15,437 nucleotides of DNA from Zymomonas sp. (GTDB lineage Bacteria; Pseudomonadota; Alphaproteobacteria; Sphingomonadales; Sphingomonadaceae). The position numbers and the translations under genes are program-made. The notes under the pieces were generated by a model, which did not search any database, was not told the origin of the DNA, and was given only the letters and a program-made list of their open reading frames with translations. This document shows positions 2,065-7,202 of this stretch, piece by piece; the stretch's first letter is position 1, and every line of letters starts with the position of its first letter. Location of the stretch: positions 1 to 15,437 of the forward strand of contig NZ_JAIWON010000111.1 of NCBI RefSeq assembly GCF_020216885.1. Reading direction: 5' to 3'.

Positions 2065-2079
2065 CCTTTCTTCCCAATG

Positions 2080-2122
2080 GCCATAAATAAGGAAAGAGAC
2101 GAACCCTTTTCTTATTTATGGC
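2080..2122 (+). terminator. Strong hairpin terminating ybaK
   Basis: GCCATAAATAAG (2080-2091) pairs perfectly with CTTATTTATGGC (2111-2122). The stem extends inward through GAAAG/CTTTT (one G-U) to about 17 bp, leaving a 9-nt loop. It begins 15 bases after the deacylase stop and is followed by the T-rich stretch TTCTTTTATTTTT. It overlaps the first codons of the longest frame of the next gene, which argues for a downstream start there. Confidence 0.65.
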
Positions 2123-2187
2123 AAATTCTTTTATTTTTGACTGATCTGCCCTTGCAGAAAAGGACAAGCCTTGCTCAAAGATGCCGC

Positions 2188-3660
2188 ATGACTGTGATGA
2201 TCGACATGGGGAAAGATTCCAAAGGGCAAGTTGTCCCGATGGATCTCGAAGAATTGCTGGCAACAAGATTGTTGGTTCAGGGTAATTCCGGTTCCGGTAA
2301 ATCCCATTTATTGAGGCGGATGCTCGAAAAAAGCGCCCGTTTTGTGCAACAGATTGTCATTGATCCCGAAGGCGACTTTGTTACCTTGGCGGAACGCTTT
2401 CCTCATGTCGCGGTCGAAGCTGCGGCTTACAATGAATCCGAAATTCGGGTTTTGGCGCAAAGAATTCGCGAACATCGCGTTTCCGTGGTGCTCAATCTTG
2501 AAGGGCTGGATGTCGATAATCAGATGAAATGTGCCGCATGGTTTCTTGCGACATTATTTGATGCCCCGCGCGACCACTGGTATCCCGCGATTGTCGTTGT
2601 GGATGAAGCCCAAATCTTTGCCCCAGCCCAAGCAGGAGAGGTCTCGGACGAAGCGCGCCGCCTATCTCTCGCAGCCATGACCAATTTGATGTGCCGTGGC
2701 CGGAAAAGAGGCCTTGCCGGTGTCATTGCGACCCAACGTCTGGCTAAATTAGCCAAGAATGTCGCCGCCGAAGCCTCAAATTTTCTCATGGGGCGTACTT
2801 TTCTTGACATCGACATGGCACGCGCAGCCGATTTGCTCGGTATGGACAGACGGCAAGCTGAAAGCATCCGCGACCTTGAACGGGGGCATTTTCTAGCCTT
2901 AGGGCCGGCTTTATGCCGTCGCCCTGTTGCGGTCAAAATCGGGGAAGTCGAGACTAAAAGCCGGACAGGCGGATTCAAATTGATGCCGCTCCCCGACAGC
3001 AAAAATAGTAATCCCGAAGCGCTGCTCTTCTCCGAACCGGAAGAACCCGCTTTACCTTTAGCTTCTCCTGAACCCCCTCCACCGCCTTCGTCCAGCCAAT
3101 TGATGGAATTGCTGCAAAAGGAAAAGGAAGAAGAGGCGAAAATAGCCGAGGCAGAAGCCGCCGAAAATCCGGTCGATAATAGCCAGAAAGAAGCGCTGAT
3201 TGATGCTCTTCTTTCCAGTATCGTCGAAGAAGAAGAAAACGCTTACCGTCAGGCCAATTTGCTCTATCCCGAATTTACGATTGGTTGCCGGATGCACGGC
3301 CTATCCACACCGCCTTTGGATTTAACAGCCTTCACCAAAAGGCTGACGATTGCCAAAGCAGGGCTTAGCAATGACGATTTACAGGATGAATTGTGGCAAC
3401 CTGCGCTCAAGGCAGCCAGCATTCTTGAAGAAGATATACAGGCGGTGTTTTTGTTCTTGGCAAAAAGTGCAAAAGAAAATGCCCCCTGCCCCGATGATGA
3501 GATGATTGCCCGTATTTACGGCACACGCTCGGCTGGACGTGCCAGACGGCTAATCGGCTATATGGAAAATCAGGGTATTATCGCTATCAGAACTGATTTC
3601 GGCGGACGGCGCAGCATTACACTTCCGGCTTTAGGCTGGACGACCAGCACAGCCGCCTGA
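2188..3660 (+). CDS. HerA/FtsK-like P-loop ATPase with C-terminal winged-helix-like region
   Basis: This is a soluble ATPase of about 490 aa from the HerA/DUF87 side of the FtsK-HerA superfamily, whose members act as DNA translocases or helicases; substrate unknown. In numbering from ATG 2188, Walker A is GNSGSGKS (32-39), Walker B is VVVDEAQ with D139 and E140, the motif CRGRKRG follows at about 169-175, and ATQR at about 181-184 fits sensor 1. An acidic, proline-rich linker (about 274-353, with a PEPPPPPSSS run) leads to a C-terminal region (about 433-483, DEMIARIYGTRSAGRARR...) that reads like a winged helix. The frame is open from 2077, but those 37 codons lie in the terminator hairpin and read unlike the family; conserved sequence begins near MTVMIDMG. 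The ribosome site at 2188 is weak, and ATG 2197 is an alternative. Confidence 0.75.
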   Translation: MTVMIDMGKDSKGQVVPMDLEELLATRLLVQGNSGSGKSHLLRRMLEKSARFVQQIVIDPEGDFVTLAERFPHVAVEAAAYNESEIRVLAQRIREHRVSVVLNLEGLDVDNQMKCAAWFLATLFDAPRDHWYPAIVVVDEAQIFAPAQAGEVSDEARRLSLAAMTNLMCRGRKRGLAGVIATQRLAKLAKNVAAEASNFLMGRTFLDIDMARAADLLGMDRRQAESIRDLERGHFLALGPALCRRPVAVKIGEVETKSRTGGFKLMPLPDSKNSNPEALLFSEPEEPALPLASPEPPPPPSSSQLMELLQKEKEEEAKIAEAEAAENPVDNSQKEALIDALLSSIVEEEENAYRQANLLYPEFTIGCRMHGLSTPPLDLTAFTKRLTIAKAGLSNDDLQDELWQPALKAASILEEDIQAVFLFLAKSAKENAPCPDDEMIARIYGTRSAGRARRLIGYMENQGIIAIRTDFGGRRSITLPALGWTTSTAA

Positions 3661-3827: not shown

Positions 3828-3843
3828 TGTTCCACGTGAAACA
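3828..3843. other. parS centromere site 1
   Basis: TGTTCCACGTGAAACA is an exact match to the canonical 16-bp chromosomal parS sequence bound by ParB (Bacillus subtilis consensus; its reverse complement is the form usual in alphaproteobacteria). It lies in the intergenic space between the convergent ATPase gene and the hypothetical gene, beside a terminator. ParB loads here, spreads, and works with ParA and SMC in origin segregation. An exact 16-mer by chance is very unlikely, and a second copy lies 2,156 bp away. Confidence 0.9.
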
Positions 3844-3866
3844 ACAGGACTGGCAATATTCAATAA

Positions 3867-3900
3867 AAAAGGCACTCTCTTAAAAAAGAAAGTGCCTTTT
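3867..3900 (-). terminator. Intrinsic terminator of the hypothetical gene
   Basis: AAAAGGCACTCTCTT (3867-3881) pairs with AAGAAAGTGCCTTTT (3886-3900) with one mismatch around a tight A-rich loop. On the minus strand the stem ends in TTTTTTATTG, a proper U-tract, 17 bases past the stop of the minus-strand gene. The plus-strand tail CCTTTT suggests it may also work rightwards. Confidence 0.8.
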
Positions 3901-3917
3901 CCCCTGTTTATTAAAAA

Positions 3918-4250
3918 TCAATTCTCGCGGAAATATTCCAACAGCTCTTCTTTAAAATCAGGCATTTTGCTGGAAAGCATTTCTTTCAACTGGTCATGTT
4001 TGATATCGCTATGAACAAGACGGTTATGCGATATGTCATAAAGGGCGCGTCCAGATTCACCTTTAAAGACTAAAGGAATCTCGGCAATTACTGCGCCGCT
4101 ATCTTCGTATAAAAAGATATGCTCAAGAGCATTTGCAGGTTTGACTGACAGCTGATCTGGGTCATCGACCATATAATTCATATGATCCATAATCTCGGCG
4201 GCCATACGGTGCCTTATTCCAGCAGACACTTCCAGTTTTTTATGGGACAT
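3918..4250 (-). CDS. Hypothetical protein, about 110 aa
   Basis: I do not recognise this family. The frame opens at GTG 4259, but ATG 4250 (MSHKKLEVSAG) has AAAGG eight bases upstream and is the more likely start; GTG 4259 also has GGAAAG at a workable distance. The protein is soluble and charged, without signal peptide or membrane segment. It has a central strand-like part (EHIFLYEDSGAVIAEIPLVFKG) and an acidic amphipathic C-terminus (MPDFKEELLEYFREN). It is downstream of rarA on the same strand, separated by a highly structured leader with a small ORF, and has its own terminator. It lies between the two parS sites. Reading-frame quality, ribosome site and terminator make it likely to be real. 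Confidence 0.7.
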   Translation of the reverse strand: MSHKKLEVSAGIRHRMAAEIMDHMNYMVDDPDQLSVKPANALEHIFLYEDSGAVIAEIPLVFKGESGRALYDISHNRLVHSDIKHDQLKEMLSSKMPDFKEELLEYFREN

Positions 4251-4278
4251 AACAAGCACCTTTACTCTTTCCGCCTTT

Positions 4279-4378
4279 TGCCATCATTTTACTCGGCAAA
4301 AGGGGGCTTTATGAAAGGTAATACGTTAATTCAGGCCTTTTTGTTCCCATAAAGCCCAATCCCGATAAAATGATCGCA
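4279..4378 (-). promoter_or_regulatory. Nested inverted repeat in the leader of the hypothetical gene
   Basis: The outer arms TGCCATCATTTTACTCGG (4279-4296) and CCGATAAAATGATCGCA (4362-4378) pair with one mismatch and one bulge. Inside are GGGCTTTATG (4304-4313) with CATAAAGCCC (4348-4357), a perfect 10 bp, and AAAGG (4314-4318) with CCTTT (4336-4340). A competing hairpin, CCTTTTGCC (4274-4282) with GGCAAAAGG (4295-4303), cannot form together with the outer stem because both need 4279-4282 and 4295-4296. On the minus-strand RNA this lies just before the ribosome site of the downstream gene. Mutually exclusive folds in that place suggest an attenuator or translational switch. It resembles no riboswitch class I know. 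A decayed mobile inverted repeat is the alternative. Confidence 0.5.
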
Positions 4379-4404
4379 GTAAATGCGGTTTCAAAATCCG
4401 GCAT
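4309..4404 (-). CDS. Possible 31-aa small ORF in the rarA 3' leader region
   Basis: ATG at 4404 opens 31 codons (beginning MPDFETAFTAIILSG, ending ELTYYLS) and stops at TAA 4311-4309. AAGG nine bases upstream is a fair ribosome site. It starts about 34 bases after the rarA stop. The codons run through the 5' arm of the outer and inner stems of the nested inverted repeat and stop inside the inner 3' arm, so translation would open that structure. That is the geometry of a leader peptide controlling the next gene. No homologue is recognised. Confidence 0.35.
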   Translation of the reverse strand: MPDFETAFTAIILSGLGFMGTKRPELTYYLS

Positions 4405-4438
4405 AAATTCTTGCCTTGCCCAATATTTTTACCCGCTT

Positions 4439-5788
4439 TTACTTACCGTTAGGCTTTCCTTTTTTTCTTTCCTGTCGCAAATGCGCCCAAAAAGCTAACC
4501 TCTCCGTGATATGCTTTTCATAACCCCGTATATTCGGTTGATAGAGCGTCACAGGCGGCAAATTCTCCGGCCAATAATTATCACCTGAAAAAGCATCGGG
4601 CATATCATGGTCATAGTGATACCCCTCACCATAGCCCTGCTGTTTCATCATCTCGGTTGGCGCATTAAGGATATTGGACGGTGGCAAGACAGAGCCGCTT
4701 TCGCGCGCCAAGGCCATCGCCTGATTATAAGCCTTATAGATCGCGTTGGATTTGGGGGCTGTCGCGACATAGACACAGGCTTGAGCAATCGCTAACTCGC
4801 CTTCCGGCGAACCTAAAAGCTGATAAGTCTCTTTAGCCGCAATACATTGCTCCATAGCCCGAGGATCAGCCAAGCCGACTTCCTCATTGGCCATACGCGT
4901 TATACGACGCAACAAATAAAGCGGGTCTTCACCAGCAACCAGCATCCGCGACAAATAATAAAGCGCGGCCTGCGGGTCAGACCCCCTTACTGATTTATGT
5001 AATGCCGATATCAGATTATAATGACCATCCCGATCTTTGTCATAAATCGCCATCCTTTTTTGAAGGATTTGCGCCAATTCTGACACTGACAAAGCGTTTT
5101 CTAGCTTCATCGACAAGAGAATTTCGGCCTGATTTAACAGAAACCGCCCATCTCCATCAGCAGAAGCGATTAAGGCTTTTCGGGCATCATCATCTACAGG
5201 CAAAAGCTGCCCAGAAACCGTCTCGGCTCTTTCCAGCAACAAGCCCAAGGCCTCTTCACCCAGACGGTTCAACGTCACCACTTGGGCGCGGGATAACAAA
5301 GCCGCATTCAAAGCGAAAGACGGGTTTTCCGTTGTCGCCCCTACCAAGACAAAAGTGCCATTCTCGATATAGGGTAAAAAGCTATCCTGTTGCCCTTTAT
5401 TGAAACGATGAATTTCATCAATAAAGAGTAATGTCGCCTTCCCCATCTCCCGATAGGTTATAGCATTTTGAAAAATCTTTTTCAGATCAGCAACACCTGA
5501 AAAAATGGCCGATACCATTTCAAATCGCATTCCGACCGATTCAGCCAAAAGCTGGGCGATACTCGTTTTTCCGGTTCCGGGCGGGCCCCACAAGATCAGA
5601 GAGGATAACCGACCTGCTGCCACCATTCGGCCAATGATACCGTTTTCTCCGGTGACATGCGCCTGCCCGATGACATCAGATAGATGCTTAGGACGCAAAA
5701 TATCCGCTAAAGGCCGATTTTCAGGCACAGGCCGATTTTCATTTTCGGTAAAAACAGCCTGCTCTACAGAATTGAATAAATCATCCAT
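4439..5788 (-). CDS. rarA: Replication-associated recombination protein A (RarA/MgsA), AAA+ ATPase
   Basis: The 449-aa protein is the usual length for RarA, a homotetrameric AAA+ ATPase related to clamp loaders that works with single-strand-binding protein at stalled forks and is conserved up to Mgs1/WRNIP1. Visible are RPKHLSDVIGQ (32-42), Walker A GPPGTGKT (68-75), Walker B LLFIDEIHRFN (120-130), sensor 1 GATTENPSF, the arginine-finger context ALLSRAQV, and the C-terminal tetramerisation region ending in the family block GYGEGYHYDHDMPDAFSGDNYWPENL-type sequence near 383-408. The start is ATG 5788; upstream GGTGG lies too close for a normal ribosome site, so initiation looks weak. It lies between two parS sites. 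The gene appears intact. Confidence 0.95.
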   Translation of the reverse strand: MDDLFNSVEQAVFTENENRPVPENRPLADILRPKHLSDVIGQAHVTGENGIIGRMVAAGRLSSLILWGPPGTGKTSIAQLLAESVGMRFEMVSAIFSGVADLKKIFQNAITYREMGKATLLFIDEIHRFNKGQQDSFLPYIENGTFVLVGATTENPSFALNAALLSRAQVVTLNRLGEEALGLLLERAETVSGQLLPVDDDARKALIASADGDGRFLLNQAEILLSMKLENALSVSELAQILQKRMAIYDKDRDGHYNLISALHKSVRGSDPQAALYYLSRMLVAGEDPLYLLRRITRMANEEVGLADPRAMEQCIAAKETYQLLGSPEGELAIAQACVYVATAPKSNAIYKAYNQAMALARESGSVLPPSNILNAPTEMMKQQGYGEGYHYDHDMPDAFSGDNYWPENLPPVTLYQPNIRGYEKHITERLAFWAHLRQERKKGKPNGK

Positions 5789-5955
5789 CCACCAATCATA
5801 CAGGGTGAATGCCCTTTTTGGCTATCTTTAGACAGATTCTTTACAATAAAATCTCTTTCGAAATTGATCGGGTTATACTCACGACTTCCCGATGTAATTT
5901 CACTCTGAATAGCCGCCTCAAACCGCAATCACCTCAAACCCACATAAACAAAAAA

Positions 5956-5981
5956 GGCAGCGCTCTAATAGAAACGCTGCC
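5956..5981 (-). terminator. Intrinsic terminator of the dihydroorotate-dehydrogenase-like gene
   Basis: GGCAGCG (5956-5962) pairs with CGCTGCC (5975-5981). On the minus strand the stem is followed by TTTTTTGTTT, a good U-tract. It is the first strong terminator after the minus-strand gene ending at 6053. A weaker upstream hairpin (AAAAGGG 5999-6005 with CCCTTTT 6033-6039) lies between them. Confidence 0.75.
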
Positions 5982-5983
5982 CT

Positions 5984-5999
5984 TGTTCCACGTGAAACA
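5984..5999. other. parS centromere site 2
   Basis: This is a second exact TGTTCCACGTGAAACA in the same orientation as the site at 3828. It lies in the intergenic space between rarA and the flavoprotein gene and touches the terminator hairpin at 5956-5981. Two exact copies within 2.2 kb match the clustered parS sites found near bacterial origins and give ParB two loading points on either side of rarA. Confidence 0.9.
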
Positions 6000-6052: not shown

Positions 6053-7120
6053 TTAAGCCAAAAACTTCTTCGTTTCTTCTGCCAAATGCGGATTCCACAT
6101 AGACCCTGTTGCAGTCATCACAGCATTGGCACCCGCCTCGATATAGGCCTTATAATGTTCAGGCTTGTTCATGCCACCAACACCCACGATGGCATAATCG
6201 AGTGATTTTTCTTCACGAAAAGCCGCCAAACGCTGCACCATTTCCAATCCAGCCCAACGGATAGCATCACCACAAACCCCGCCTTCGGGACGGGTTGAGG
6301 ATAAAGCAGGTTGTCCTTTTTCATCCAGAGGCCGCGCACTCAACGTATTGATTGTGCTAAATCCACTTACCAGATGACCTACTTTTGAAACCAAATCTTC
6401 CAGCTTGGTATTATCTTTGAAATAAGCGGTTTTAATCAATAAAGGCCGATCCGGCACAGCCGTCTTGATTGCTTCAACAATCTTCTGAACGGCCAGCGTA
6501 TCAAAGCAAAGCAAGCTATTCACGCCTTCATTGGGACAGCTCAAATTCGCTTCCAAAACGGGTGCACCCGTTTCAGCCACCATGCGAGCAGCCAAGGCGT
6601 AATCTTCTTCAATCTTGCCCTTGCCGCGCGTGCCTTGGAAACTACCGATCATTACCTGACGATCCGAAGCCGCGTTAACCGCTTCGGCCATATCCGGCTG
6701 CCAAATATCAGGATTAAAGGAAGGCACCCCGAAAGAATTGGTAATCGATAAAGGCTGAGTATAACGGGTATCGGCCAAAACCGCTTCACAATCGGCACTC
6801 AGCCCCCCTTCGGGGTGAATGGCAAGAACATTCGGCAAGGGATGACTTTTATGTTCCTGTGTTCTGACAGTTTTGTAAACGCATAGATCAAAACCGGCAT
6901 GAAAAGCCGCCTTGATATAACGACTATTCAACAAAGGGCCTGCTGGGATACCCAAAGGCAGATCAACCGAACACCCAAGGAAAGAAACCGGCTTTTTCAC
7001 CGAAACCGCAAAAGAAGGATCGGGCTTTTCAACAATATCTGCGAAATAGCCGAAAGGGCCTTCCTTATAGTTATCTTCATAACTCAATTCAGGATTGTAA
7101 TATGGAATTTCGGTTTTCAT
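6053..7120 (-). CDS. Dihydroorotate-dehydrogenase-like FMN flavoprotein
   Basis: The 355-aa protein has the TIM-barrel pattern of the dihydroorotate dehydrogenase superfamily: GIPAGPLLNSRYIKAA (58-72, phosphate/FMN entry), YKTVRT (82-87), NLSCPN (192-197), LLIKTA (227-232), VGVGG (312-316) and the C-terminal phosphate-binding YIEAGANAVMTATG. C195 in NLSCPN is where class 1 enzymes have their catalytic cysteine; class 2 (PyrD of most proteobacteria) has serine. ATG 7120 is chosen because GGGAGG lies seven bases upstream; the frame extends to 7171 without support. Whether it oxidises dihydroorotate or another substrate cannot be settled here, as a divergent N-terminal 50 residues sets it apart from typical PyrD. 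It probably has its own promoter. Confidence 0.7.
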   Translation of the reverse strand: MKTEIPYYNPELSYEDNYKEGPFGYFADIVEKPDPSFAVSVKKPVSFLGCSVDLPLGIPAGPLLNSRYIKAAFHAGFDLCVYKTVRTQEHKSHPLPNVLAIHPEGGLSADCEAVLADTRYTQPLSITNSFGVPSFNPDIWQPDMAEAVNAASDRQVMIGSFQGTRGKGKIEEDYALAARMVAETGAPVLEANLSCPNEGVNSLLCFDTLAVQKIVEAIKTAVPDRPLLIKTAYFKDNTKLEDLVSKVGHLVSGFSTINTLSARPLDEKGQPALSSTRPEGGVCGDAIRWAGLEMVQRLAAFREEKSLDYAIVGVGGMNKPEHYKAYIEAGANAVMTATGSMWNPHLAEETKKFLA

Positions 7121-7202
7121 GCTCTGGCCTCCCAAATGATTCCCGAGAGGAATACAGAAATATCCTTTCATCAGGAAACAAGTTTTTTAAGATAATCGCC
7201 CA

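Follow-up and report, generated by a model that had tools for sequence, protein, structure and literature searches.

Two exact copies of a 16-bp sequence, TGTTCCACGTGAAACA, flank the rarA gene on a contig of a Zymomonas sp. draft genome, and they raise the question of whether they are binding sites (parS) for the chromosomal partition protein ParB and, if so, which part of the chromosome they serve. The contig (NZ_JAIWON010000111.1) was analysed over its whole length of 15,437 nucleotides, here called the window; it is contig 128 in our numbering of the source genome (G000; 1.92 Mb, 184 contigs). On sequence grounds we consider it very probable that the two copies are genuine secondary chromosomal parS sites, a second ParB loading pair that in our sample is confined to Zymomonas and is additional to the pair at mnmG-rsmG-parA-parB.

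Site 1 occupies positions 3828..3843 (+ strand), between the stop of a herA-like gene at 3660 and the end of a convergent 113-amino-acid open reading frame (ORF) at 3918. Site 2 lies at 5984..5999 (+ strand), between the start of rarA at 5788 and the end of a DHO_dh-family gene at 6053, both genes being on the − strand. The flanking gene ends show that both sites are intergenic, as the initial annotation of the window had stated, and the pair is spaced by 2.16 kb. The shared orientation remarked on in that annotation is literally correct and little informative, since the 16-mer is palindromic except at two positions. Chromosomal parS is a 16-bp near-palindrome, TGTTNCACGTGNAACA, which both sites match exactly, and the 12-bp core TTYCACGTGRAA was present in the window at these two sites only. 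When up to three mismatches were allowed, the window yielded four strand-wise matches, compared with a mean of 0.10 and a maximum of 2 in shuffled sequences (0/200 shuffles reached 4). Base composition alone predicts 8e-6 exact copies for the window and 0.001 for the genome of 1.92 Mb, so that the occurrence of two copies is indeed beyond chance.

Both sites were also said to adjoin terminators, and hairpins of this kind were found at each. A terminator-like hairpin lies beside site 1 at approximately 3867..3902 (given without strand; z −7.0, 0/200 shuffles), and a second hairpin, resembling an intrinsic terminator and located downstream of the DHO_dh-family gene at 5953..5984 on the − strand, abuts site 2 (the surrounding 71 nt fold with z −4.5). 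This proximity would suit a reading of the palindromes as mere terminator parts, or as sites of another CACGTG-type regulator, CACGTG palindromes being common recognition cores. However, the overlap of the terminator stem with the 16-mer amounts to one base at most at site 2 and to none at site 1, all 16 positions fit parS, and the identical 16-mer occurs in the same genome upstream of mnmG, where relatives in the family carry parS. We regard both of these explanations as extremely unlikely.

A search of the source genome with at most two mismatches to the 16-mer gave three places, all of them exact, with one match in the reversed control. Two are those in the window and the third is on contig 111 (our numbering), just upstream of mnmG. 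A fourth, weaker site, TATTTCACGTGAAACG, is found at position 1188 of contig 92; it has two mismatches to TGTTTCACGTGAAACA and directly precedes the rsmG-parA-parB stretch (locus L004, starting at C92:1241). The remaining matches appeared only at three mismatches, nine forward in all compared with six in the reversed control. The sequence thus occurs in few copies and is not scattered, as expected of a chromosomal parS and as the initial annotation had anticipated for a genome-wide search. The source genome holds two pairs of sites, the canonical pair at mnmG/rsmG-parAB and the pair around rarA.

One ParB match, above the family cut-off, was obtained in the source genome, and its gene belongs to the rsmG-parA-parB stretch on contig 92. 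Aligned to Caulobacter ParB (6t1f) and counted by eye, this protein has R and G at the places of R173 and G201, residues described as absolutely conserved in ParB orthologs (PMC7383237). At the specificity positions 173, 179, 184 and 201 it carries R, L, D and G, versus R, T, A and G in Caulobacter. The genome therefore encodes ParA and a ParB with parS-type recognition residues, and the 16-mers are very probably parS, as first proposed. Eight further ParB proteins from diverse species were tested in PMC7053999, and a Zymomonas ParB may be among them.

The sites were then compared across four Zymomonas genomes, the source genome and the near-complete chromosomes G002, G003 and G004; the genome behind the Zymomonas mobilis AN0101 locus (G001), the nearest named relative found (RarA identity 85%), has the same coordinates as G003. 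G002 carries TGTTTCACGTGAAACA at 833,113 and 835,273 around rarA, with mnmG/rsmG sites at 1,393,542 and 1,395,576. In G003, rarA is flanked by sites at 218,373 and 220,580, and the rsmG/mnmG sites lie at 108,947 and 110,981. G004, the most distant of these genomes by RarA (74% identical), has weaker sites at mnmG/rsmG (1,369,187 and 1,371,219) and a single site at 1,243,616, 46 bp after herA; a 558-amino-acid ORF separates this site from rarA, and no parS site was found in the region upstream of rarA. A weak site in the 3′ end of the G004 rarA gene (1,245,526; four mismatches to TGTTTCACGTGAAACA) was set aside, as four such matches occur in that 60 kb. The pair around rarA is accordingly kept in three of the four genomes (G000, G002 and G003), site 1 being present in 4/4 and site 2 in 3/4. 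In G002, G003 and G004 the counterpart of the fourth site of the source genome sits between mnmG and the portion of rsmG that gave a match, and in the stretches inspected it reads, by eye, as part of the rsmG frame.

All 15 Zymomonas sites (4, 4, 4 and 3) have the core TTYCACGTGRAA in common. In the sampled stretches of the relatives this core was confined to the four named sites in both G002 (860 kb sampled) and G003 (610 kb sampled); in G004 (460 kb sampled) it occurred at the three named sites and once more, at 217,721. The 16-mers around rarA are also better conserved than their surroundings, as expected of parS, when G000 and G002 are each compared with G003. Between G000 and G003, 14/16 positions are kept at each site while the flanks are 66% and 68% identical; between G002 and G003 the figures are 15/16 at each site, with flanks 64% and 66% identical. 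Pooled over both sites and with flanks anchored by hand, the binomial p values for core versus flank are 0.007 (G000–G003) and 0.0002 (G002–G003). The core was set as the anchor by hand because the MAFFT alignment put site 1 of G003 in the wrong place.

The initial annotation took the sites to mark a chromosomal centromere near the origin, and we therefore located the origin in the relatives. DnaA boxes were counted with at most one mismatch to the familiar consensus. A hemE-linked cluster of 10–12 boxes in approximately 240–260 bp was found upstream of hemE in G002, G003 (119,860–120,102) and G004, and contig C157 of the source genome starts within the same cluster, with nine boxes left. We predict from these boxes that the cluster is the replication origin (oriC); a hemE-linked origin is known in Caulobacter. 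The gene dnaA itself is located elsewhere. In G003, DnaA was matched in two pieces with separate open frames (1,462,871–1,464,270; L037, L038), possibly reflecting a frameshift, an error in the sequence or a genuine split of the gene. A published oriC prediction for two Z. mobilis strains, not validated, likewise relies on a DnaA-site cluster together with skew (PMC8365228).

Measured from the DnaA-box cluster, the mnmG/rsmG sites lie at 8.9 and 10.9 kb in G003, at 12.4 and 14.4 kb in G002, and at 9.1 and 11.1 kb in G004. For the sites at rarA/herA the distances are 98.3 and 100.5 kb (G003, approximately 5% of the chromosome), 116.3 kb (G004, 5.8%) and 546 and 548 kb (G002 assembly, 27%). A primary, origin-proximal centromere is expected beside oriC and parAB, and the rarA pair is beside neither. 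The claim of an origin-flanking centromere therefore has to be transferred to the separate mnmG/rsmG-parAB pair. The looser statement that the region is near the origin holds for G003 and G004, and by extrapolation for the source genome, at approximately 5–6% of the chromosome, and fails for the G002 assembly with its 546 kb.

The same picture was obtained in the wider family, sampled as 79 genomes from 78 genera, of which 2 are Zymomonas and 77 are outside the genus. Sites with at most one mismatch to TGTTNCACGTGNAACA were found in 79/79 genomes (reversed control, 1–2 matches in 12/79). Among the loci listed, 29/30 show mnmG, rsmG, parA or parB within approximately 3 kb, and one (L109) shows none of the proteins sought. 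Remote parS sites outside Zymomonas can be read from this survey for the family genomes among the matches listed. In one of these (G014, contig C54) parS-like sites occur at 73,068, at 118,244–120,716 and at 171,748, the outer ones approximately 45 kb and 51 kb off the main cluster, possibly a second case of remote parS sites.

That the rarA pair might nevertheless be the primary, origin-marking centromere is suggested by the exactness of its sites and by the cumulative guanine–cytosine (GC) skew of G002, whose minimum at approximately 0.91 Mb is only about 75 kb from the pair. Skew was computed on sampled stretches of the chromosomes. This minimum coincides, however, with the edge of a 443-kb segment (approximately 0.911–1.354 Mb) that is placed differently in G003 and that parts two blocks adjacent in G003 near oriC (L059, L068). 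Insertion sequence copies of approximately 850 bp, in the same direction and 100% identical, lie near both ends of the segment (912,468–913,317 and 1,353,411–1,354,260), and over its larger part the GC skew is inverted relative to the sign predicted from its position on the arm. Both a recent move and a misassembly are possible. Skew alone is thus misleading as an origin finder in G002, and was discarded for this purpose; in G003 it is clearly positive from approximately 100 kb to 1.0 Mb and near zero or mixed from 1.15 Mb on and in the first 80 kb. With the DnaA-box cluster and parAB located elsewhere, the cluster lying 9–14 kb from the mnmG/rsmG-parAB pair in all three relatives, and with the family's listed parS loci almost all at mnmG-parAB, we rejected the primary-centromere explanation as very improbable.

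In the source genome, contig 109 crosses the nearer of the block junctions in the same way as G002 and contains an insert of approximately 4.3 kb. On contig 130, the block end (G002 910,847) is followed after 184 bp by G002 1,354,317–1,355,608, and the 443-kb segment is absent. The rarA pair in the source genome would accordingly lie approximately 102 kb from oriC, leaving inserts aside and provided that the final part of the way to oriC is arranged as it is in G002.

The presence of rarA and an ORF of unknown function between the sites, to which the initial annotation had drawn attention, is borne out, and the sites might have been recruited to couple ParB with rarA expression or with the function of RarA at replication forks. 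In keeping with such a regulatory parS, rarA lies between the sites in 3/4 Zymomonas genomes, and site 2 occupies the upstream region of rarA, the expected location of its promoter. The survey of the family argues against it. The rarA gene was found in 79/79 genomes, and the DNA around it was inspected for 68 of the 77 that do not belong to Zymomonas; 28 of these loci came with approximately 1.5 kb per side and 40 with up to approximately 5 kb per side, less at contig ends. In these 68 genomes no site with an intact CACGTG and at most two mismatches was present near rarA. Near-sites by rarA at loci L248 (one mismatch) and L232 (two mismatches) have a broken CACGTG core and were taken as chance matches. 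Moreover, the site kept in G004 is on the herA side, with another ORF before rarA, and data cited in PMC7022226 suggest that binding of Spo0J at the 10 parS sequences of Bacillus subtilis has little effect on expression. Recruitment for the sake of rarA is thus improbable, no special role of this gene emerges from the data, and its position between the sites is most likely incidental.

As secondary parS sites, the rarA pair would act as follows. Chromosomal ParB would bind the two sites, close on cytidine triphosphate and spread outwards by sliding, so that it would cover the intervening 2.1 kb, which contain rarA and the small ORF, as well as some kilobases beyond the pair. Coverage of rarA, as initially proposed, would be expected because Caulobacter ParB associates with approximately 10 kb of DNA around its sites (PMC5815017); the B. 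subtilis data make a consequence for expression doubtful. ParB would then load at four sites, the canonical pair marking oriC and the rarA pair on one arm, and ParA and SMC would gain a second handle on the origin region approximately 100 kb out on that arm. Binding, sliding and a role in segregation are predictions here.

Several observations weigh against this reading. The pair is not strictly conserved as a pair, G004 retaining one site only, and between the close relatives G000 and G002 conservation of the core (15/16) does not clearly exceed that of the flanks (77% and 85%). In the G002 assembly the sites lie outside the usual origin domain, and the distance from oriC in the source genome had to be inferred because the assembly is in 184 contigs. 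In principle, the sites could also serve a different CACGTG-binding protein. Among the papers listed in our literature searches, none was seen to record ParB binding to these sites and none was recognisable as dealing with parS in Zymomonas; the parS survey of Livny et al. 2007 may list sites from this genus. On balance, the assignment of the pair as parS is well supported; the pair is a secondary one, not the primary one, and belongs to a known kind.

Extra parS sites are known from other bacteria, and origin-distal sites in B. subtilis are reportedly the subject of a study, to judge by its title. Pseudomonas aeruginosa has ten putative parS sites, four of them near oriC (PMC4368675), and Spo0J of B. 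subtilis binds at and around 10 parS sequences (PMC7022226). Zymomonas resembles both in having copies beyond the origin cluster and one ParB. It differs in that its extra sites, still putative, form a pair separated by 2.16 kb that encloses a single gene and a small ORF, and in that the host is an alphaproteobacterium with a 2-Mb genome reported as polyploid. The type species of the genus is a biofuel producer, and the report of polyploidy concerns that species (PMC8365228).

The mnmG-rsmG-parAB sites of Sphingomonadaceae and Caulobacter are of the same 16-mer type, and those of Zymomonas share their origin-proximal location, 9–14 kb from the DnaA boxes; in Caulobacter the parS sites cluster approximately 8 kb from ori (PMC5815017). 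The window pair, in contrast, is outside the par region, approximately 100 kb off in G003 and, by inference, in the source genome, and no such pair near rarA was seen in the 68 genomes examined outside the genus. A second parS cluster inserted into the Caulobacter chromosome is best tolerated within approximately 500 kb surrounding ori and is disfavoured mid-arm (PMC5815017). The rarA/herA sites of G003 and G004, roughly 100 kb from oriC, fit this tolerated zone; unlike the inserted clusters they are natural, and the mid-arm position of the pair in the G002 assembly (27%) does not fit.

A stronger proposal, which we regard as possible though rather unlikely, is that a functional second centromere arose in Zymomonas: ParB would load at an additional pair of sites on one chromosome arm, and this pair would have persisted while the genus diverged and be tolerated even mid-arm, as in G002. 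If so, a working centromere at mid-arm would break the permissive-zone pattern of Caulobacter, and polyploidy might allow this. If the G002 assembly is correct, a living lineage carries a mid-arm parS pair. Apart from these points, the arrangement belongs to ordinary chromosome biology. With four parS sites named in a Zymomonas genome, the genus offers a natural second parS cluster in an alphaproteobacterium and a natural test case for where extra centromeres are tolerated.

The steadiest neighbour of site 1 is the HerA-like ATPase gene (2077..3660, + strand; DUF87/FtsK-type P-loop), which adjoins the site in 4/4 Zymomonas genomes. The 113-amino-acid ORF between the sites (3918..4259, − strand) has no Pfam or NCBIfam match; a protein search gave two matches, one named Zymomonas mobilis, indicating a narrow range, and the ORF was not found near rarA in G004. 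The rarA gene (4439..5788, − strand) encodes an MgsA-type AAA+ ATPase, and the DHO_dh-family gene bordering site 2 extends over 6053..7171 (− strand). Because the herA-like gene, the 113-amino-acid ORF and the DHO_dh-family gene had no match in the 68 rarA loci outside Zymomonas (28 of them with only approximately 1.5 kb per side), this gene neighbourhood was not seen outside the genus. The match of the DHO_dh-family gene in G004 (1,376,533–1,377,583; L144) is approximately 3 kb from the parB match, so that this gene is in the par region in G004 and beside rarA in the window.

Two repeat arrays were observed towards the start of the window. At 360–806 there is an array resembling clustered regularly interspaced short palindromic repeats, with eight repeat copies starting GTTCACTGCCGCACAGGCAGC at a spacing of 60–62, the last copy diverging at its 3′ end; we take its look to be that of type I-F. 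At the contig start (1–91) a tandem 13-bp repeat, GCTCAATGGCTCG, occurs in several exact copies and may be the cause of the contig ending there.
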